A DNA stretch of 64,000 nt. Origin: Pedobacter sp. Leaf170. GTDB lineage: Bacteria > Bacteroidota > Bacteroidia > Sphingobacteriales > Sphingobacteriaceae. Below, one piece after another: positions 3,634 to 37,835 of the stretch. The number at the start of each line of letters is the position of its first letter. The first letter of the stretch is position 1. The notes below the pieces were generated by a model that was not told the origin of the DNA, searched no databases, and saw only the letters and a list, made by a program, of their open reading frames with translations. The stretch is from positions 310,001 through 374,000 of the forward strand of contig NZ_CAKLBP010000005.1 of assembly GCF_920984665.1 (NCBI RefSeq). Reading direction: 5' to 3'. A program made the translations under genes and the position numbers.

Positions 3634-3975
3634 TTAAACCTTGGTTTTGCAGCTTTGCGTCGGTGCTTGCTCCACAAAGGTTTTAAATATCAAATTGAAT
3701 TGTTCGGAAAAATCCGAAAAGGCGTACCAGTTGATGCAATAACGTGACCTCAAATTTGAGGTATTCCCCTTTATAAGACCAACAATTTCCAGTGCTTTAA
3801 GATGTTTTGCAACTGAAGATTCTTCAATTGGCAAATCATTTATTATACCTTCAGTACAACCTTCCTGCCTGGCAAGCCGGATCATTATAGCGATTCGGGC
3901 TGGGTGTGCCAATGCCCGCATGAACTTTGCAAGTTGCTTTTCTACTGGCTCATAGTCACTAGTTTTAACATCCAT
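3634..3975 (-). CDS. ArsR-family winged-helix regulator (operon-distal)
   Basis: 113-residue helix-turn-helix protein of the ArsR/SmtB superfamily. Seen: ALAHPARIAIMIRL in the first helices, and the recognition region EESSVAKHLKALEIVGLIKG. Cysteines at 40, 80 and 109 are scattered and do not form the CIC or ELCVCDL metal motifs of the proximal arsR, so it may sense something else or act through the C-terminal Cys. It is the last gene of the leftward arsenic operon, 13 bases after a metallophosphoesterase, with no counterpart in the second ars operon. Family firm, ligand unknown. Confidence 0.85.
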   Translation of the reverse strand: MDVKTSDYEPVEKQLAKFMRALAHPARIAIMIRLARQEGCTEGIINDLPIEESSVAKHLKALEIVGLIKGNTSNLRSRYCINWYAFSDFSEQFNLIFKTFVEQAPTQSCKTKV

Positions 3976-3988
3976 TTGCTTTAGTAAT

Positions 3989-4726
3989 TTATTTGGCTAT
4001 TCGCAATGCATCTGCAAATTCACCTGGCAACAGACTATTCTCAATCATTTTTGCTGAGGATTCTACATTATAATCAAACCTTCTAAATTCTACCTGTATG
4101 CTGTTTTTATCTGATATGGAGCTGTCCGGAGCAATGGTAATTATTACATAGCAGCCTCTTGGATCTCCGTCTTTAGGCTTTCCTACCGACCCGAGGTTAA
4201 CTACATGATTGAACTTATTATCATTACCCTTTAAAATACGATGGTAAGGCTTATGAGAATGGCCAACAAAGAGCATGTCTGCACCTGCTTCCTGCATCAT
4301 ATCTAAAACATATTTTTCATCCGTATCTGTAAAAATATATTCATCTATACTTCTAGTGCTGCCGTGCGCAAAAACAAGATTAAGTGTTTCGGATTGTAGC
4401 TTGTATTCTAGTTTTATGTGCGCAGGCAGTGTCTTCAAGTAGTTTCTGTTATCCTGGCTAATTAAATGATAAGCGTAATTTTTACCTGGCTCCTGGAGAC
4501 TATTGGGGGTTGTAATTAATTTTTCAACCTTTTGATCATGATTGCCTTTTAAAGTTCCGATTCCACGTCTACGGATCTCCTGGATAACTTCGTTTGGATA
4601 AATGTGGTATCCCACCAAATCACCGAGACAATAAGCAGCATCGCGTTTTTGTTCATCCATATCGTCTAGCATTGCTTTAAATGCCGGTAGATTGGCGTGG
4701 ATATCTGAAAATAGCGCTATTCTCAT
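3989..4726 (-). CDS. Calcineurin-like metallophosphoesterase (YfcE/MJ0936 type)
   Basis: 245-residue cytosolic phosphodiesterase-like protein. All signature blocks are present: FSDIHANLPA (metal-binding D8 and H10), GDLVGY at 35-40, GNHD at 61-64, FAHGS, and GHSHKPYH near residue 177. Known family members hydrolyse phosphodiesters or phosphorylated nucleotides with two metal ions; the substrate here is unknown. It sits three bases after a paralogue and downstream of acr3, and a close relative closes the second ars operon (37098-37835), so a role in arsenic handling is inferred from repeated linkage only. Confidence 0.85.
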   Translation of the reverse strand: MRIALFSDIHANLPAFKAMLDDMDEQKRDAAYCLGDLVGYHIYPNEVIQEIRRRGIGTLKGNHDQKVEKLITTPNSLQEPGKNYAYHLISQDNRNYLKTLPAHIKLEYKLQSETLNLVFAHGSTRSIDEYIFTDTDEKYVLDMMQEAGADMLFVGHSHKPYHRILKGNDNKFNHVVNLGSVGKPKDGDPRGCYVIITIAPDSSISDKNSIQVEFRRFDYNVESSAKMIENSLLPGEFADALRIAK

Positions 4727-4729
4727 ACC

Positions 4730-5497
4730 TTATCCTTTACGTAACATGTCTGCATATTCATTCGGAAGTGGACTGTCTTCTACGGCTTTAGCTGCCTTTT
4801 CAATGTCATACTCAAAGCGAATAAATTCAACTTCAATGCTTTCTTTATCTGTTACTGTACTATCAGGGTTGATAGTTAAAATAACATAACCACCCCTTGG
4901 GTCGCTGTCTTTTGGTTTACCCACTGAGCCGATATTAATGGCATGCCTGAAATGATCTTCACCTTCATTCCCTGAGTTTAAAATTCTATGATAAGGCTTA
5001 TGGGTATGGCCAAAACACATAATATCTGCATCTGCCTGTTCCATGATCCGGAGCATGCTTTTTTCATCACGATCTTCAAAAAGGTATTCATTTACCTTGC
5101 GGGGGCTGCCATGTACAAACAGAACATTGCGCTTATCATTTAACTGGTATTCCAGTCTAATGTGAGCAGGAAGGGTTCTTAGATAAGCACGTTGCTCATC
5201 CTTTACAACTTCATTGGTATAGGAGATAGAAACCTTACCTAATGCTTTTTCTTCGTCTGTTTTATAGGCACAACCGCAATCATCGCTAGACCTGCCAATG
5301 CCCCAGTCATAATTTCCTGCGATAGTTGGTATGCCTCGCCTGCGGATTTCATCGATTACCTCGTTTGGCCAGATGTTATATCCAACTAAATCTCCAAGGC
5401 AATAAATTGCGTCCGTATTTCTGGTTTCAACGTCTTTAAAAAAGGCTTCCAGGGCAGGAAGATTTGCATGGATATCTGAAAAAAGTGCAATTCTCAT
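4730..5497 (-). CDS. Calcineurin-like metallophosphoesterase, paralogue
   Basis: 255 residues, with the same DIHANLPA, GDLVGY and GHTHKPYH blocks as its neighbour but GNYDWG where the other has GNHD, so one metal-site histidine is replaced by Tyr. It also has an insertion with a Cys pair (CGCAYK) near residue 75. The start overlaps the acr3 stop by one base, which points to translational coupling with the arsenite exporter. The His-to-Tyr change may alter metal use or activity. Tandem duplication with the downstream gene is likely. Family firm, substrate unknown. Confidence 0.83.
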   Translation of the reverse strand: MRIALFSDIHANLPALEAFFKDVETRNTDAIYCLGDLVGYNIWPNEVIDEIRRRGIPTIAGNYDWGIGRSSDDCGCAYKTDEEKALGKVSISYTNEVVKDEQRAYLRTLPAHIRLEYQLNDKRNVLFVHGSPRKVNEYLFEDRDEKSMLRIMEQADADIMCFGHTHKPYHRILNSGNEGEDHFRHAINIGSVGKPKDSDPRGGYVILTINPDSTVTDKESIEVEFIRFEYDIEKAAKAVEDSPLPNEYADMLRKG

Positions 5498-6582
5498 TAT
5501 TGTATGGTGTTTAAGGTTTTTGTTGGATAGTATTTTTTGCGGAAGTAAAAAGCGAGGTTGACCAGAGCGATCAGTGCCGGGACTTCAACCAAAGGGCCAA
5601 TAACGCCAGCGAATGCCTGTCCCGAATTGATTCCAAAAACACCAATAGCAACTGCTATGGCCAGTTCAAAATTGTTTCCCGTGGCCGTAAAAGCAATTGA
5701 TGTACTTCTTGAATAGTCTGCTCCGAAGTAACGGCCAGCAAAAAAGCTGATCACAAACATGATCGAGAAATAAATAACAAGGGGTATAGCAATTCTCACA
5801 ACATCCATAGGAATCTGTACAATCAGCTCGCCCTTCAGGCTAAACATAATTACAATTGTAAATAGTAAAGCGATAAGCGTAATCGGAGAAATTAAAGGGA
5901 TAAACTTGTTTTGAAACCAGTCTTCACCTTTCAGCTTTATAAGTCCGTACCGACTGATTATACCCATTGCAAAAGGAAGTCCCAAATAGATCCCTACGCT
6001 TTTAGCAATCTCAGAAATGGTAATGTTTACTTCAAGACTTTCAAGCCCAAAGAAAGGTGGCAAAACGGTAATAAAGATATAGGCAAACACACTGTAGAGC
6101 AATACCTGAAAAATGCTGTTCAGCGCAATCAAACCTGCTGCATATTCCCTATTACCCTCTGCAAGCTCGTTCCAAACCACCACCATAGCAATACACCTGG
6201 CCAGGCCAATAAGGATCAGCCCAACCATATATTCCGGATAATCTCTTAAAAAAGTAATTGCTAAAAAAAACATTAGAAGTGGGCCAATTACCCAATTCAG
6301 AACCAGGGATACGCTTAAGACTTTAGTGTCTTTAAACACTTCTCCCATCTTTTCATATTTCACCTTGGCTAGTGGGGGGTACATCATTAAGATCAGTCCG
6401 ATCGCTAAGGGGATGTTTGTGGTTCCGCTGGAAAACGAATTGATGAATCCGGAAGAAGATGGAAGAAAATAACCGGTAGCTACACCGATACCCATCGCCA
6501 GAAAAATCCATAGTGTAAGGTACCGGTCTAAAAAGCTTAATTTTCTTCTTTCGGCAGCAGGTGCACAGTTGTTTGCAGACAT
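5497..6582 (-). CDS. acr3: Acr3-family arsenite efflux transporter
   Basis: 361-residue inner-membrane carrier of the bile/arsenite/riboflavin superfamily, about ten membrane spans, exporting arsenite by proton antiport. Seen: the invariant Cys of Acr3 in [20 protein letters not shown] (C130), and [19 protein letters not shown] with the conserved Glu of the ninth span. The N-terminus MSANNCAP carries an extra cysteine that is also present in the second copy at 35991-37070. It follows the DUF6428 gene after 13 bases and is coupled to the metallophosphoesterase. Very high confidence. Confidence 0.95.
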
Positions 6583-6595
6583 GGTTATGATTTAT

Positions 6596-7066
6596 TTAGC
6601 AGCAACCGCCACCTGGTGTACACGTGGATCCGGAAGCGGCAAGATTCTGCAATTGTACTTTTTGTTTTACTTCAGGGACACCACATAGTTCCGGCGCAAG
6701 GCATGCTGTTGTCTTAGCAATTAGTAAGAAGTTTTTACCATCGTAACCAAGGTCGTATTTACCAATTGTCTGAGCCTGGTATTCTACTTCAATTTCTAGA
6801 TCTTCCATCCCTAATACTTTTTCAGAAAGTGATATGATGTTTAGCAGCTTGCCTGCTTTCAAACGATGCTCAAAATCGTTGGCATCCCAAAGTTGAAAGT
6901 TGGCCACTTTTTCATGACGTACTGTACCCCCACAATCAATAAAGTCTTTTGTAACAACACCAACTTCGGTTACATGGAAATGTTCAGGAACTGGTGTACC
7001 GTTTTCTAATTGAAAGTTTACGCTTTCAGCTTGCGCCAAGTGGGCTTTTATTTCTGATAGTTTCAT
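6596..7066 (-). CDS. DUF6428-type protein with terminal vicinal cysteines, arsenic-linked
   Basis: 156-residue soluble protein without signal peptide. It shares with the 34495-35064 protein the blocks HVTE, DCGG (44-47), QLW (58-60) and a C-terminal tail with C149 and a final C155-C156. The tail resembles that of the neighbouring ArsR, which also ends in CC. Placement between arsR and acr3 in both ars operons suggests an arsenite-binding accessory, functionally like the ArsD chaperone, though no ArsD fold is apparent. DUF6428 naming is from memory of the family; function is inference. An operator copy lies just upstream of the start. Confidence 0.72.
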   Translation of the reverse strand: MKLSEIKAHLAQAESVNFQLENGTPVPEHFHVTEVGVVTKDFIDCGGTVRHEKVANFQLWDANDFEHRLKAGKLLNIISLSEKVLGMEDLEIEVEYQAQTIGKYDLGYDGKNFLLIAKTTACLAPELCGVPEVKQKVQLQNLAASGSTCTPGGGCC

Positions 7067-7088: not shown

Positions 7089-7106
7089 ATATTGCAATTA
7101 AACGAT
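7089..7106 (-). promoter_or_regulatory. ArsR operator copy before the DUF6428 gene
   Basis: On the minus strand reads ATCGTTTAATTGCAATAT, 22 bases before the start codon. It matches the sites at 7459-7476, 34101-34120 and 34476-34493 with consensus ATCGTnnnATTGCAATAT. Binding by the adjacent ArsR is inferred from conservation across both operons. Confidence 0.6.
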
Positions 7107-7125
7107 TGACTTGGTTAAAAAAAAG

Positions 7126-7455
7126 CTAGCAGCAGCTAGCTTCTAGCTTATATGATCCAAGGAAAGCACCTATTTGGGTTTCCAGCAATTTCCATGTTTC
7201 CGGATTTATGCAATAGCAAACGCTAACCCCTTCGATGGTACCCTGGATAATTCCGACAGACTTTAATTCCCTTAAATGCTGAGATATTGTAGCCTGGGCA
7301 AGACCCAGCTCTTCTACAAGATCTCCACAAATACAAGTATTGGAAACTAGTATTCTTTGCAGAATAGCAATACGTGCAGGGTGAGCCATTGCCTTTAATA
7401 GCTGAGCAAGCTGGTTCTGCTCGGAGGTAAACATTTCGGTTTTTGTAAGTCCCAT
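7126..7455 (-). CDS. arsR: ArsR-family arsenic-responsive repressor
   Basis: 109-residue winged-helix repressor. The start is placed at the ATG reading MGLTKTEMFT because the second copy (34127) starts identically; the frame stays open four codons further upstream but that would overlap the operator. Seen: KAMAHPARIAILQRI, the CIC pair (C41, C43), recognition helix AQATISQHLRELKSVGIIQG, CYC (C80, C82) and a terminal C108-C109. These thiols suit As(III) coordination. First gene of the leftward ars operon; its promoter contains the operator, so it should repress itself. The second-copy protein is about 85 percent identical by eye. Confidence 0.93.
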   Translation of the reverse strand: MGLTKTEMFTSEQNQLAQLLKAMAHPARIAILQRILVSNTCICGDLVEELGLAQATISQHLRELKSVGIIQGTIEGVSVCYCINPETWKLLETQIGAFLGSYKLEASCC

Positions 7456-7458
7456 AAT

Positions 7459-7496
7459 ATATTGCAATATTACGATTAGTTTAGTGAAATAACAAA
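7459..7496 (-). promoter_or_regulatory. ars operon 1 promoter with overlapping operator
   Basis: On the minus strand TTTG (7493-7496), 20 bases of spacer, then TAATATTG (7465-7472), close to TAnnTTTG. The operator ATCGTAATATTGCAATAT (7459-7476) covers the -7 element and ends three bases before the ATG. The second ars operon has the same arrangement at 34084-34120. Confidence 0.65.
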
Positions 7497-34083: not shown

Positions 34084-34120
34084 TTTGGGTTATTGATTTT
34101 ATATCGTAATATTGCGATAT
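34084..34120 (+). promoter_or_regulatory. ars operon 2 promoter with overlapping operator
   Basis: TTTG (34084-34087), 19-base spacer, TAATATTG (34107-34114). The operator, ATATCG at 34101 through CGATAT ending at 34120, is an imperfect 20-bp palindrome over the -7 element, seven bases before the ATG. Same layout as ars operon 1, which supports autorepression. Confidence 0.68.
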
Positions 34121-34126
34121 AAAATT

Positions 34127-34456
34127 ATGGGACTTACAAGATCAGAAATATTCACCGACGAGCAGAACCAGCTTTCCACACTGCTGAAAGCAATTGCGCA
34201 TCCTGCCCGCATCGCCGTCCTGCAAAGGATCCTTATATCCAATACCTGTATCTGCGGGGATCTGGTAGAGGAATTGGGCTTAGCACAGGCAACCATTTCG
34301 CAACACCTTAAAGAACTTAAAACAGCCGGGATCATTCAGGGAACGATCGAAGGCGTGAGTGTCTGCTATTGTATCAACCCTAAAACCTGGAAATTATTGG
34401 AAGAACAGTTGGGTACATTCTTTGGCTCGTACAAAGGCGAAACCAGCTGCTGCTAA
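34127..34456 (+). CDS. arsR: ArsR-family arsenic-responsive repressor (operon 2)
   Basis: 109 residues from MGLTRSEIFT; an in-frame TTG five codons upstream lies inside the operator and was rejected. CIC (41, 43), AQATISQHLKELKTAGIIQG recognition helix, CYC (80, 82) and terminal CC are all kept relative to the first copy. Repressor of ars operon 2; since operators are shared, each ArsR may act on both operons (inference). Confidence 0.93.
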   Translation: MGLTRSEIFTDEQNQLSTLLKAIAHPARIAVLQRILISNTCICGDLVEELGLAQATISQHLKELKTAGIIQGTIEGVSVCYCINPKTWKLLEEQLGTFFGSYKGETSCC

Positions 34457-34475: not shown

Positions 34476-34493
34476 ATCGTTAAATTGCAATAT
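34476..34493 (+). promoter_or_regulatory. ArsR operator copy before the second DUF6428 gene
   Basis: ATCGTTAAATTGCAATAT, one base before the ATG. Same position relative to the gene family as the 7089-7106 copy. It implies a second regulated promoter or a repressor roadblock inside the operon. Confidence 0.6.
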
Positions 34494-34494
34494 T

Positions 34495-35064
34495 ATGAAC
34501 AATGCAGAATTGACTAACTGGCAAACATTCAAAGCCACATTAGAACAACATCCAGAACTGATCCTTCAATTCCAGTATGCGGAAGGTAAGTGGGTAGACG
34601 CTTCATACCATATTACCGAAATCAAACAGGCACCGATCGTATCTGTGGATTGCGGAGGAAAAATGAATACCTGGACAGAAATTATCGTACAGCTTTGGGA
34701 GCCATCCGTACAGGAAAGCGAAAGGGCCATGCAGGTTAGCAAAGCGTTGTCGATTGTAAGTCTGGTAGAAAAATCTTTACCACTTAACCCCCTGGGAACC
34801 GTTAAGATAGAGTTTGGAAACTCACAGTTTGATACCAGACAGATGTATCCCGGCGAATTTTTGATCGATGGCGATAACCTGATCGTTAACCTGATCCCTG
34901 ATTTTACGCAGTGCAAAGCAATCGGACGTGGGGGAAGTTGTGGAACAACAGAAACAGGGGAAGAATGCTGTGCACCAGCGGTGAAAGAAGAAAAACCAAA
35001 ATTACAGATGGTAAACCTTGCTGGGGCGGGACAGACCTGTGAACCCGGTTCGGGCTGCTGCTAA
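34495..35064 (+). CDS. DUF6428-type protein with terminal vicinal cysteines (operon 2)
   Basis: 189 residues, longer than the first copy through an insertion rich in Cys (GGSCGTTETGEECCAP, about 142-157). Shared blocks: YHITE, DCGG (52-55), VQLWEP and the final QTCEPGSGCC (C182, C188, C189). Three separate Cys clusters make soft-metal or As(III) binding likely. Position between arsR and the detoxification genes matches operon 1. Function inferred; no homologue of known activity recognised. Confidence 0.72.
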   Translation: MNNAELTNWQTFKATLEQHPELILQFQYAEGKWVDASYHITEIKQAPIVSVDCGGKMNTWTEIIVQLWEPSVQESERAMQVSKALSIVSLVEKSLPLNPLGTVKIEFGNSQFDTRQMYPGEFLIDGDNLIVNLIPDFTQCKAIGRGGSCGTTETGEECCAPAVKEEKPKLQMVNLAGAGQTCEPGSGCC

Positions 35065-35071
35065 TCAGCGT

Positions 35072-35563
35072 ATGGAAATTATAGAATTACTCCCCTTGCA
35101 CTGGGAAGAGGTTAGAATTATTTATCTACAATGTATCGCCACTAAGCAGGCTACCTTTCAGACCGATGCCCCGGCATGGGAAGAATGGGACAAAGGCCAC
35201 CTGGCTGGTCTCCGCTATGTTGCTATCATTGATGGTAACGTGGCAGGCTGGGCAGCTTTAACCCCTGTTTCAGGCAGATGTGTCTATGCAGGGGTAACAG
35301 AAGTGAGCGTTTATATACATGAAGGCTATCGAGGTAAAGGGATAGGTGGGGCGCTATTGCAAAAGCTGGTTACCGAAAGTGAGGCCAGTAACATCTGGAC
35401 GCTGCAATCAGGCATCTTTCCTGAAAATACGGGTAGTATCGCCCTGCACGAAAAGCTTGGTTTTAGAGAAATCGGTTATCGCGAAAAGATCGGCAAGATG
35501 GACGGGGTATGGCGGGATACAGTGCTGATGGAACGAAGAAGTAAAATAATAGGACAAGAATAA
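35072..35563 (+). CDS. arsN1: GNAT N-acetyltransferase, ArsN1-like
   Basis: 163 residues from MEIIELLPLHWEEV; an upstream start within the DUF6428 gene was rejected. GNAT fold with the acetyl-CoA loop GYRGKGIGGALL, and the family features ATFQTDAPAWEEW near the N-terminus and GVTEVSVYIHE, FPENTGSIALHEKLGFREIG. This pattern fits phosphinothricin-type acetyltransferases, of which ArsN1 members acetylate the arsenical antibiotic arsinothricin. Location directly before arsC supports that reading; a phosphinothricin or other amine substrate cannot be excluded. Absent from ars operon 1. Confidence 0.78.
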   Translation: MEIIELLPLHWEEVRIIYLQCIATKQATFQTDAPAWEEWDKGHLAGLRYVAIIDGNVAGWAALTPVSGRCVYAGVTEVSVYIHEGYRGKGIGGALLQKLVTESEASNIWTLQSGIFPENTGSIALHEKLGFREIGYREKIGKMDGVWRDTVLMERRSKIIGQE

Positions 35564-35567
35564 AAAC

Positions 35568-35987
35568 ATGAAAAAAATATTAGTACTCTGCACAGGAAAC
35601 AGCTGTAGAAGCCAGTTGGCAGAAGGTTATTTAAGGCATTTTGCCGGAGATCAGGTGGAAATATACAGCGCAGGGATTGAAACACATGGCGTAAATCCAA
35701 AAGCTATCGCAGTCATGGCAGAAGATCATATCGATATTTCGGGACATACCTCGAACCATGTAGATGAATATGGCGGAATTGATTTTGATGCAGTAATCAC
35801 TGTTTGCGATAATGCCAATGAAGCCTGTCCTTTCTTTCCGGGAAAAGTAGACCGTTTCCACAAGAATTTCCCTGACCCTGCAAAGGCTACAGGAACGCCA
35901 GAGGAAATGATGGACGAATTCAGAAGGGTACGTGAGCTGATCAAAGCCTATTCAGCAGATTTTGTAAACCAGTATATAAACAGATAA
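35568..35987 (+). CDS. arsC: Thioredoxin-coupled arsenate reductase
   Basis: 139 residues, low-molecular-weight phosphatase fold. P-loop CTGNSCRS gives C8 and C13; C80 and C87 follow in CDNANEACPFFP. The spacing equals C10, C15, C82 and C89 of the Staphylococcus pI258 enzyme, so the intramolecular disulfide cascade and thioredoxin recycling should work. DPAKATGT carries the general-acid Asp. Converts arsenate to arsenite for export by the Acr3 encoded four bases downstream. No counterpart in operon 1. Confidence 0.95.
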   Translation: MKKILVLCTGNSCRSQLAEGYLRHFAGDQVEIYSAGIETHGVNPKAIAVMAEDHIDISGHTSNHVDEYGGIDFDAVITVCDNANEACPFFPGKVDRFHKNFPDPAKATGTPEEMMDEFRRVRELIKAYSADFVNQYINR

Positions 35988-35990
35988 ACC

Positions 35991-37070
35991 ATGAGTGCAA
36001 ACAATTGTGCCCCCGTTGAAGAACGAAAAAAACTGGGATTCCTTGACCGTTACCTGACCCTATGGATCTTTATCGCGATGGCGATAGGGGTTGGCATCGG
36101 CTATTTTATCCCATCATCTTCCGGTTTTATCAATTCCTTTTCCAGCGGTACAACCAACATCCCACTGGCCATCGGCCTGATCCTGATGATGTACCCGCCA
36201 CTTGCCAAGGTAAAATATGAAAATATGGGCGAAGTGTTTAAGGATACCAAAGTGTTGAGCGTTTCCCTGGTGCTGAACTGGGTGGTCGGTCCGCTGTTGA
36301 TGTTCTTTCTGGCCATTACTTTTTTAAGGGACTATCCTGAATATATGGTTGGCCTGATCCTGATCGGGCTAGCACGTTGTATCGCCATGGTGGTGGTATG
36401 GAACGAGCTGGCAGAAGGTAACCGCGAATATGCCGCTGGCCTGATCGCATTGAACAGCATCTTCCAGGTATTGTTATACAGCGTGTTTGCCTATATATTC
36501 ATTACCGTATTGCCACCTTTCTTTGGCCTGAAAAGCCTTGAGGTAAATATAACCATTGGTGAGATCGCAAAAAGCGTGGGCATTTATTTAGGATTGCCAT
36601 TTGCAATGGGTGTTATCAGCAGATATGCACTGATCAAACTCAAAGGTGAAGACTGGTTCCAGAACAGGTTTATCCCATTTATATCTCCTATAACCCTGAT
36701 CGCTTTGCTGTTTACCATTGTCATTATGTTCAGCCTGAAAGGTAACCTGATCGTACAGATACCAATGGACGTGGTTCGTATTGCCATACCGCTGGTGATC
36801 TATTTCTCTATCATGTTCATCGTCAGCTTTTTTGCAGGCAGGTATTTCGGGGCAGATTATTCTAGAAGTACTTCCATTGCCTTTACTGCCACTGGTAACA
36901 ATTTTGAACTGGCGATCGCCGTGGCCATTGGTGTGTTTGGAATCAATTCGGGACAGGCATTTGCCGGAGTAATCGGACCTTTGGTGGAAGTACCCGCATT
37001 GATTGCCTTGGTTAATCTGGCCTTCTGGTTCAGGAAAAAATATTATACCACAACAGAGGCTACTAACTAA
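35991..37070 (+). CDS. acr3: Acr3-family arsenite efflux transporter (operon 2)
   Basis: 359 residues, very similar to the first copy throughout, including the MSANNCAP leader, C130 in [17 protein letters not shown] and [19 protein letters not shown]. Ten predicted spans. Differences are mostly conservative and at the C-terminal tail. Exports As(III) produced by the upstream ArsC. Confidence 0.95.
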
Positions 37071-37097
37071 CAAACAATTCTAAACACCTTTTCAGAT

Positions 37098-37835
37098 ATG
37101 AGAATTGCATTATTTTCTGACGTCCATGCCAATTTCCCCGCTTTTGAAGCCATGCTGCAAGATATGGACAGCCAAAAGCCCGATGCCGTATATTGTCTGG
37201 GGGATCTTGTAGGCTACCATATCTATCCCAATGAAGTCATTGATGAAATCCGCAGAAGAGGGATTGCAACCTTAAAAGGCAACCATGACGAAAAAGTTGA
37301 AAATATCATTACCACTCCTGAAAGTTTAAATGAACCGGAAAAAAAATATGCTTATCACCTGATTCGTGAGGATAACAGGGAATATCTGACAACGCTTCCG
37401 GCACATATCAGGTTAGAATATAAACTGAACGGTGAAAAACTAAACCTTGTTTTTGCGCACGGCAGTACCAGGAGCATAGATGAATATATCCTGATAGACA
37501 CAGATGCAGACTATGTTTTGGAAATGCTTAAAGAAGCTGAGGCAGATCTGCTTTTTGTCGGGCACTCCCATAAACCGTATCACCGAATCTTAGAGACACG
37601 AGATGGACGGCTTAAACATTTGATCAACCTGGGATCCGTCGGAAAGCCTAAAGACGGGGACCTAAAGGGATGTTACGTTATAGTTCACTTAAATGCAGGC
37701 AGTTCCACAACCGATAAAAATAGTATCGAAATTGAATTCAGACGTGTTGAGTACGATGTGGAAGCATCCGCCATAGCTATCATAAACAGCCCCCTCCCCG
37801 ATGAGTTCGCTGATGCCTTGAGGCTTGCAAAATAG
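37098..37835 (+). CDS. Calcineurin-like metallophosphoesterase (operon 2)
   Basis: 245 residues with FSDVHANFPA, GDLVGYHIYPNEV, GNHDEK, FAHGS and GHSHKPYH, all metal ligands present. Far closer to the 3989-4726 protein than to the GNYD paralogue. Ends the second ars operon, 27 bases after acr3. Repeated linkage to acr3 points to a job in arsenic tolerance, for example clearing an arsenylated or phosphorylated by-product, but the substrate is unknown. Confidence 0.85.
   Translation: MRIALFSDVHANFPAFEAMLQDMDSQKPDAVYCLGDLVGYHIYPNEVIDEIRRRGIATLKGNHDEKVENIITTPESLNEPEKKYAYHLIREDNREYLTTLPAHIRLEYKLNGEKLNLVFAHGSTRSIDEYILIDTDADYVLEMLKEAEADLLFVGHSHKPYHRILETRDGRLKHLINLGSVGKPKDGDLKGCYVIVHLNAGSSTTDKNSIEIEFRRVEYDVEASAIAIINSPLPDEFADALRLAK

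Follow-up and report, generated by a model that had tools for sequence, protein, structure and literature searches.

Introduction

Three described systems stand closest to the protein family considered here. ArsD (PF06953, NF033727) is the As(III) metallochaperone of ArsAB and has a thioredoxin-like fold; in R773 ArsD the chaperone site is formed by Cys12, Cys13, and Cys18, whereas the C-terminal vicinal cysteine pairs matter for regulation and are dispensable for chaperoning. ArsM (NF008823) is the As(III) S-adenosylmethionine methyltransferase, and the vicinal cysteines of a red-algal ArsM have been proposed to bind As(III) strongly (PMC9812998). AfArsR is reported to bind As(III) through Cys95, Cys96, and Cys102 (PMC2440759), and a short AfArsR peptide with cysteines at positions 2, 3, and 9 is reported to bind As(III) with a log K of 6.35 at pH 7.5, passing from disorder to order (PMC11212059).

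Here, we examine DUF6428 (PF20001), a family encoded twice in a 64,000-nucleotide stretch of Pedobacter sp. Leaf170 (contig NZ_CAKLBP010000005.1, positions 310,001 to 374,000), referred to below as the window. Like ArsD, DUF6428 is a small ars-operon protein with conserved thiols. Judging from sequence, we think it fairly probable that DUF6428 is induced by arsenite and acts in the cytosol as a buffer or carrier of As(III), bound as a thiolate, for whatever As(III) sink its operon encodes.

Genomic context of the DUF6428 genes

The window contains two ars operons. Operon A, on the minus strand, begins with arsR (7126-7467, listed from a TTG with an ATG at 7455; the product has a CIC motif and ends SCC) and continues with DUF6428 copy A (6596-7066, 156 aa), the arsenite efflux permease gene acr3 (5497-6582; TIGR00832, 4e-136), two metallophosphoesterase genes (3989-5497, that is 3989-4726 and 4730-5497, assigned by Pfam and by the gene order of plasmid pA27BH1), and a third ArsR-like gene at the end of the cassette (3634-3975, assigned by profile matches and pA27BH1). 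Operon B, on the plus strand, comprises arsR (34112-34456, whose product also ends SCC), DUF6428 copy B (34495-35064, 189 aa, with an extra Cys-containing insert), and arsN (GNAT), arsC (LMW phosphatase type), acr3, and a metallophosphoesterase gene in that order (35018-37835, by gene calls and profiles). Copy A matches PF20001 over profile positions 1-155 of 155 (E 3.3e-64; 215.8 bits against a gathering threshold of 28.7), and copy B is also above the cut-off.

These two copies were the only ones found in the source genome and are just 31-32% identical, so the cysteines that they share are not the product of a recent duplication. Both retain DCGG, which in copy A spans residues 44-47 (6926-6937, minus strand; it includes Cys45, and DCG is invariant in the family) and in copy B residues 52-55. 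Both end in CC, within the tails CTPGGGCC of copy A (C149, C155, and C156; 6599-6622, minus strand) and CEPGSGCC of copy B (35038-35061, plus strand), each located by pattern search. A third conserved position in copy A, Cys122 of a TxC[LK][AP] motif (6701-6703, minus strand), is likewise an invariant cysteine. A first-pass annotation of this DNA had pointed to DCGG and the terminal CC in both copies and to a terminal CC on the ArsRs encoded beside them, and we confirm these features. Its placement of DUF6428 between arsR and acr3 applies directly to copy A; in operon B, arsN and arsC intervene before acr3.

Cassette A, including the third ArsR-like gene, occurs in the same order on the Pedobacter plasmid pA27BH1, whose DUF6428 is 97.9% identical to copy A over 92% of its length; cassette A is therefore probably mobile. 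Neither this plasmid nor its strain was mentioned in the literature searched. Calcineurin-like phosphoesterase genes lie beside acr3 in both operons of the window (3989-5497 and 37098-37835), and of 114 sampled loci, 13 have a metallophosphoesterase gene close to DUF6428. Between the operons, at 8000-33900, are what we take to be two similar copper-type gene sets, presumably encoding a CopA-like oxidase, a P-type ATPase, and small Cys-containing proteins, with 'CPMHPE' motifs.

Of 392 Bacteroidota genomes sampled, 102 encode PF20001, with 115 copies between them. Within the taxonomic family of the source the figure is 109 of 151, and the 14 control genomes have none; these counts, like the locus counts below, are uncorrected for relatedness. 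A scan of named genomes gave at least 588 confirmed places, the best 80 of which are from Bacteroidota by their record titles, except for one Ignavibacteriales MAG. Flavobacterium johnsoniae is one species in which it occurs (L236). Sixteen plasmid records from Hymenobacter, Pedobacter, Pontibacter, Empedobacter, and Persicobacter also carry the gene. NCBI plasmid records name its product "DUF6428 family protein," the Pfam entry for PF20001 assigns no function, and in the literature searched, which did not extend to subscription papers, DUF6428 was not mentioned by name and PF20001 matched only what is, by its listing, a chemistry paper.

In 114 of the 115 loci (L121 was lost in gene calling), ArsR is encoded within 5.5 kb of DUF6428 in 102, ArsC in 91, Acr3 in 64, an MIP channel (identified by its similarity to a single channel confirmed by Pfam) in 8, and ArsM in 7. 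arsR lies directly upstream in 89 loci, and arsC is the next gene in 62. An ars gene was not detected within 5.5 kb in four loci (L127, L130, L131, and L133), of which L130 is at a contig end. In two further loci, L182 (G446) and L185 (G530), the DUF6428 gene is apparently broken into two frames. Two long open reading frames (283 aa in L075 and 239 aa in L124) were considered as fusion proteins that might offer functional clues and were set aside, as they match PF20001 alone and look over-extended.

Operator-like sites

The motif ATCGT-N3-ATTGC[AG]AT precedes each arsR and recurs between arsR and each DUF6428 gene. In operon A, the main operator-like site, ATCGTAATATTGCAAT, is at 7461-7476 before arsR, and the internal site, ATCGTTTAATTGCAAT, is at 7091-7106 in the arsR-DUF6428 gap (both minus strand); the corresponding sites of operon B are ATCGTAATATTGCGAT at 34103-34118 and ATCGTTAAATTGCAAT at 34476-34491 (both plus strand). 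The earlier suggestion that each DUF6428 gene stands behind its own ArsR-type operator copy is thus borne out, at the level of an operator-like site in both gaps. This arrangement supports a separate, arsenite-responsive control of DUF6428 and the later genes in these two operons, as far as such motifs can predict it.

Among relatives, the hexamer TTGCAA was found in 98 of 163 stretches upstream of arsR against 6.6 expected, and in 38 of 142 arsR-DUF6428 gaps against 2.0 expected (both by base shuffling); many relatives have a short gap without TTGCAA. A loose search with a 13-mer and three mismatches showed no excess, returning 40 sites against 40.9 expected. Just ahead of the internal operator-like site of operon A, at 7105-7150 on the minus strand, the codons for the terminal CC of ArsR and the stop codon fall inside a terminator-like hairpin that is followed by eight U residues (z -1.8); a terminator scan did not flag it, and no strong stem was found at the equivalent place in operon B.

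Conserved residues and predicted structure

Among 141 distinct DUF6428 proteins (loci L001-L146, with the family sample included and identical sequences removed), the D-C-G motif, H31, E34, Q58, E95, C122, and the last cysteine are invariant. An alignment of 80 diverse members has ten invariant columns (H31, T33, E34, D44, C45, G46, Q58, E95, C122, and C156) at a mean column identity of only 46%, against which the invariant cysteines stand out. The exact CC end is found in 140 of the 141 proteins, the exception being L075, which ends IC. The full C-x5-CC-stop arrangement is present in 125; the other 16, which are short divergent forms together with L075, are the members in which C149 is absent, and 15 of them end in CC only.

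Copy A and a divergent member have AlphaFold models with pLDDT values of 87.0 and 90.7, respectively. Both models predict the order helix-strand-strand-strand-helix-strand-strand-strand, and that of the divergent member adds a short helix at its end. Going by the modeled strand limits, Cys45 is placed at the tip of a long hairpin, and the tail is of low confidence in both models (block pLDDT 52-69). Foldseek searches of the PDB with the two models returned nothing confident (best E 0.096 and 0.15), and VIA fold searches gave best Z scores of 2.9 (rmsd 5.1, 97 residues aligned) and 2.1 (rmsd 3.7, 57 aligned), which are likewise not confident. The best match in a viral library (E 0.0045, TM about 0.5) was to a protein without a name at hand, and a sequence search of the PDB returned nothing below E 0.46. 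The lack of a confident match to a solved structure is no proof of a new fold. ArsD was not among the weak fold matches of either model, an absence that does not exclude an ArsD fold.

The invariant H31, T33, E34, D44, Q58, and E95 exceed the needs of a mere thiol carrier. It is conceivable, though we regard it as rather unlikely, that DUF6428 is an enzyme, in which H31, E34, D44, Q58, and E95 together with Cys45 and Cys122 would form an active site for a thiol-bound arsenical or for the ArsC reaction, and in which the tail would merely recruit As(III), as it may in ArsM. Besides these polar residues, the frequent proximity of arsC (in 62 of 114 loci it is the gene after DUF6428, and in 91 it is within 5.5 kb) would agree with an enzyme, as would the presence of the tail on one, ArsM, which is encoded in 7 of the 20 acr3 loci from DUF6428-less genomes, several of which place it between arsR and the pump gene. 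However, profile searches with copy A at E 0.001 found no enzyme family, structure searches gave it no confident match to a solved fold, and DUF6428 is kept in operons without arsC, such as that of copy A.

Relation to Acr3

The first-pass annotation had proposed DUF6428 as an ArsD-like, As(III)-binding chaperone that delivers to Acr3. Its comparison with ArsD gains from a terminal tail common to DUF6428, true ArsD, and ArsM, described below; specific delivery to Acr3 finds no support. With an Acr3 threshold of E 1e-30, Acr3 was found in 63 of 102 genomes with DUF6428 and in 182 of 290 without it (Fisher p = 0.91, uncorrected for relatedness), which amounts to no association at the genome level. 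The remaining 39 of the 102 DUF6428 genomes are without Acr3, so that the two do not always occur together, and ArsB is absent from 38 of these 39. At least one MIP channel is encoded in all 39, but these channels are widespread, being present in 8 of the 14 control genomes.

A dedicated Acr3 chaperone that supplies the pump with As(III), possibly through an extra N-terminal cysteine of Acr3, is thus in our view distinctly unlikely. It would suit the position of copy A directly upstream of acr3 and the presence of Acr3 within 5.5 kb in 64 of 114 loci, and the extra cysteine, which had been described as conserved, is indeed carried by 64 of the 110 Acr3 proteins counted in DUF6428 loci (those whose N-terminus matched an anchor). 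However, it is missing from the other 46 of these partners and occurs in 5 of 20 Acr3 proteins elsewhere, two of these five being over-extended frames; by sequence, it appears common in close relatives and is not a general partner site. Moreover, some DUF6428 operons hold an aquaporin instead of Acr3: an aquaporin gene is near DUF6428 in 8 of 114 loci, in 7 of them in a same-strand run.

The related statement that no chaperone of Acr3 is known goes too far. ArsD co-occurs with Acr3 in 42 of the 60 genomes that encode ArsD, and its gene adjoins acr3 in locus L291. An arsD-arsA-acr3 arrangement has been reported for Geobacter OR-1 (PMC4319506), and ArsA and Acr3 are reported not to have coevolved (PMC2963123).

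Proteins with a terminal CC

Among the 2596 distinct genes called in the fetched loci, a terminal CC is present on 200 of 203 DUF6428 proteins (the exceptions are two broken fragments and L075), on 184 of 220 ArsRs, and on 10 of 14 ArsMs, with 36 ArsRs and 4 ArsMs ending otherwise. It is absent from all 161 Acr3, 185 ArsC, and 45 ArsN proteins and all 41 metallophosphoesterases of these loci. As the known As(III)-thiolate proteins are mostly tailed in this way and the rest of the operon is not, we take this distribution as the main ground for considering DUF6428 a likely As(III) binder. Nine of 1727 unclassified genes also end in CC, against about 0.15 expected from the cysteine frequency in 1754 genes; they are six copies of a hydrophobic protein of about 188 aa, an ArsD, a flavoprotein from an ars operon, and a protein of 93 aa that weakly matches Fe-S_biosyn. 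By comparison, the frequency of the CC end on DUF6428 greatly exceeds chance.

The hydrophobic protein, apparently a membrane protein, adjoins DUF6428 in five ars operons and lies downstream of it in a sixth (L085, 8622-9185; L139, 4410-4985; L240, 4377-4943; L242, 4585-4947; L251, 4382-4948; L262, 4412-4981). One of the six copies is a 120-aa piece, and the three copies scanned had no Pfam family above the cut-off.

The CC on ArsR bears on the possibility that DUF6428 acts as a co-regulator of ArsR, donating As(III) to the CC-tailed ArsR or accepting it from that protein. A terminal CC is found on 104 of 110 distinct ArsRs encoded no more than three genes upstream of DUF6428, compared with 8 of the 17 ArsRs in the 20 acr3 loci without DUF6428 (L273-L279 and L289; the other nine do not end in CC), and arsR is directly upstream in 89 of 114 loci. 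However, ars operons usually begin with arsR, so that whichever gene is second will abut it, and all seven ArsRs of the same-class loci lacking DUF6428 (L273-L279) end in CC, which indicates that the tail follows the ArsR lineage. We therefore give co-regulation a slim chance, and we rejected the ArsR tail as a sign of pairing with DUF6428, given its occurrence on 8 of those 17 ArsRs.

The C-x-P-x-x-G-C-C tail

Two of the seven ArsMs in the acr3 loci from DUF6428-less genomes end in the same tail as DUF6428 (L274 and L279); that of L276 ends in CC with another spacing, those of L275, L278, and L280 have a CC followed by one or two further residues, and that of L289 has none. Because an identical tail occurred on ArsMs of loci lacking DUF6428, we searched 296 Bacteroidota genomes for C-x-P-x-x-G-C-C-stop as a DNA pattern. 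There were 134 matches, compared with 22 for the pattern read backward. Excluding 16 that end in TGG in place of a stop and 4 with an internal stop leaves 114, of which 58 are DUF6428 genes and 56 lie elsewhere; the source genome contributes just two, the DUF6428 genes of the window, both with the tail at the C-terminus. The 51 of these 56 that were examined comprise 25 ArsMs and 8 ArsDs, one FmdB-type zinc ribbon reading frame (L386, where acr3 is present within 6 kb), and 17 without an in-frame open reading frame of at least 60 aa. The 25 ArsMs are 20 from the pattern follow-up and 5 in loci L063, L066, L067, L070, and L077; NCBIfam cut-offs confirm all six of the scanned ArsMs, of which five belong to the 25 and one, L279, comes from outside the 296 genomes, as well as the single scanned ArsD, and the remaining ArsM and ArsD assignments rest on profiles built in this analysis.

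No mercury or copper gene with the tail was seen among the gene-sized frames examined in the 296 genomes. It is very improbable that the DUF6428 thiols serve another soft metal or disulfide chemistry in place of As(III). Terminal CC pairs would suit Hg(II), Cu(I), or redox work, and the window is rich in what we take to be P-type ATPase-like and CusA-like pump genes; against this stand the residence of DUF6428 in ars operons, the ArsR-type operators, and the identity of the tailed gene-sized frames, which are DUF6428, ArsM, ArsD, and a single zinc ribbon frame near acr3.

Profile alignment of DUF6428 with ArsD by hhalign covers the last 13 columns only (probability 84.7), and alignment with ArsM (13 sequences, L327 left out) covers the same 13 columns only (probability 75.4). 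Three of the ArsM tails also bear the DUF6428 linker K-x-K-[LIV]-x-L-S-[ED]-L, with identities of 10/11, 9/11, and 8/11 against best shuffled values of 8, 7, and 7, the third being marginal. A linker common to DUF6428 and ArsM suggests that the tail itself may have been exchanged. At L336 (1501-2994), an ArsM-ArsN2 fusion has the tail at its new C-terminus, and the ArsDs of L372, L374, L375, L378, and L380-L383, 191-233 aa in length, have an extra C-terminal region before the tail CxPGxGCC.

We therefore suggest, tentatively, that C-x-P-x-x-G-C-C is a portable arsenic tail of Bacteroidota that has moved between unrelated proteins, namely DUF6428, ArsM, ArsD, and the ArsM-ArsN2 fusion, with a bare CC on ArsR and the small hydrophobic protein. 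The tails might then form an As(III) relay in which DUF6428 is a general carrier. In the literature searched, PGSGCC and PNSGCC were not mentioned and PGGGCC appeared only on a human enzyme; a printed description of the shared tail may nevertheless exist. The putative portable tail is a more interesting result than the role of DUF6428.

Comparison with known arsenic-binding proteins

The eight Bacteroidota ArsDs share the CxPGxGCC ending with DUF6428, and a Cupriavidus ArsD, which ends GCCSSRGCC, likewise has C-x5-CC. However, the N-terminal CC-x4-C of ArsD (Cys12, Cys13, and Cys18), invariant in nine ArsDs, has no equivalent among the conserved columns of DUF6428, and the hhalign match is limited to the tail. 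In copy A, Pfam gives PF20001 only and NCBIfam gives no family, at E 0.001. We accordingly rejected homology of DUF6428 to ArsD, there being no Pfam or NCBIfam ArsD match and no profile alignment beyond the tail. ArsD is encoded in 3 of the 102 DUF6428 genomes compared with 57 of the 290 others (p = 1e-5), a difference that may reflect lineage alone, being uncorrected for relatedness. Most likely, DUF6428 works like ArsD and shares its terminal tail, yet is not an ArsD. Since R773 ArsD can chaperone without its C-terminal cysteines, the shared tail may not be a chaperone site.

ArsM resembles DUF6428 in the tail of the 25 proteins above, in the linker of three of them, and in occupying the slot after arsR in some relatives; it differs in that DUF6428 has no methyltransferase match and aligns through the tail alone. 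The AfArsR site also has a vicinal cysteine pair and, at a distance of five residues, a third cysteine, all within a short segment that as a free peptide is disordered. Its order is CC-x5-C, the reverse of C-x5-CC in DUF6428, and copy A has no match to a DNA-binding family.

Proposed function of DUF6428

In the buffer or carrier that we favor, DUF6428 would combine a folded alpha/beta core bearing Cys45 (in DCGG) and Cys122 with a flexible tail, C149-x5-C155-C156. As(III) would free ArsR from the main and internal operators, allowing DUF6428 to be produced. Either by itself or together with a core thiol, the tail would trap As(III) as a two- or three-sulfur complex. DUF6428 may thereby lower free As(III), to the presumed benefit of the cell, and hand it to the sink of the operon, be it Acr3, an aquaporin, or ArsM.

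Through this proposal, a family that is unnamed yet widespread (102 of the 392 sampled Bacteroidota genomes) gains a function that can be tested. If it is right, it would explain how cytosolic As(III) could still be controlled where a Bacteroidota operon lacks ArsD, or lacks Acr3 or ArsB. If the tail is portable as suggested, its eight residues would serve as a marker for further arsenic proteins, and As(III) in these bacteria would be handled by a shared, transferable thiol tail and not by one chaperone per pump.
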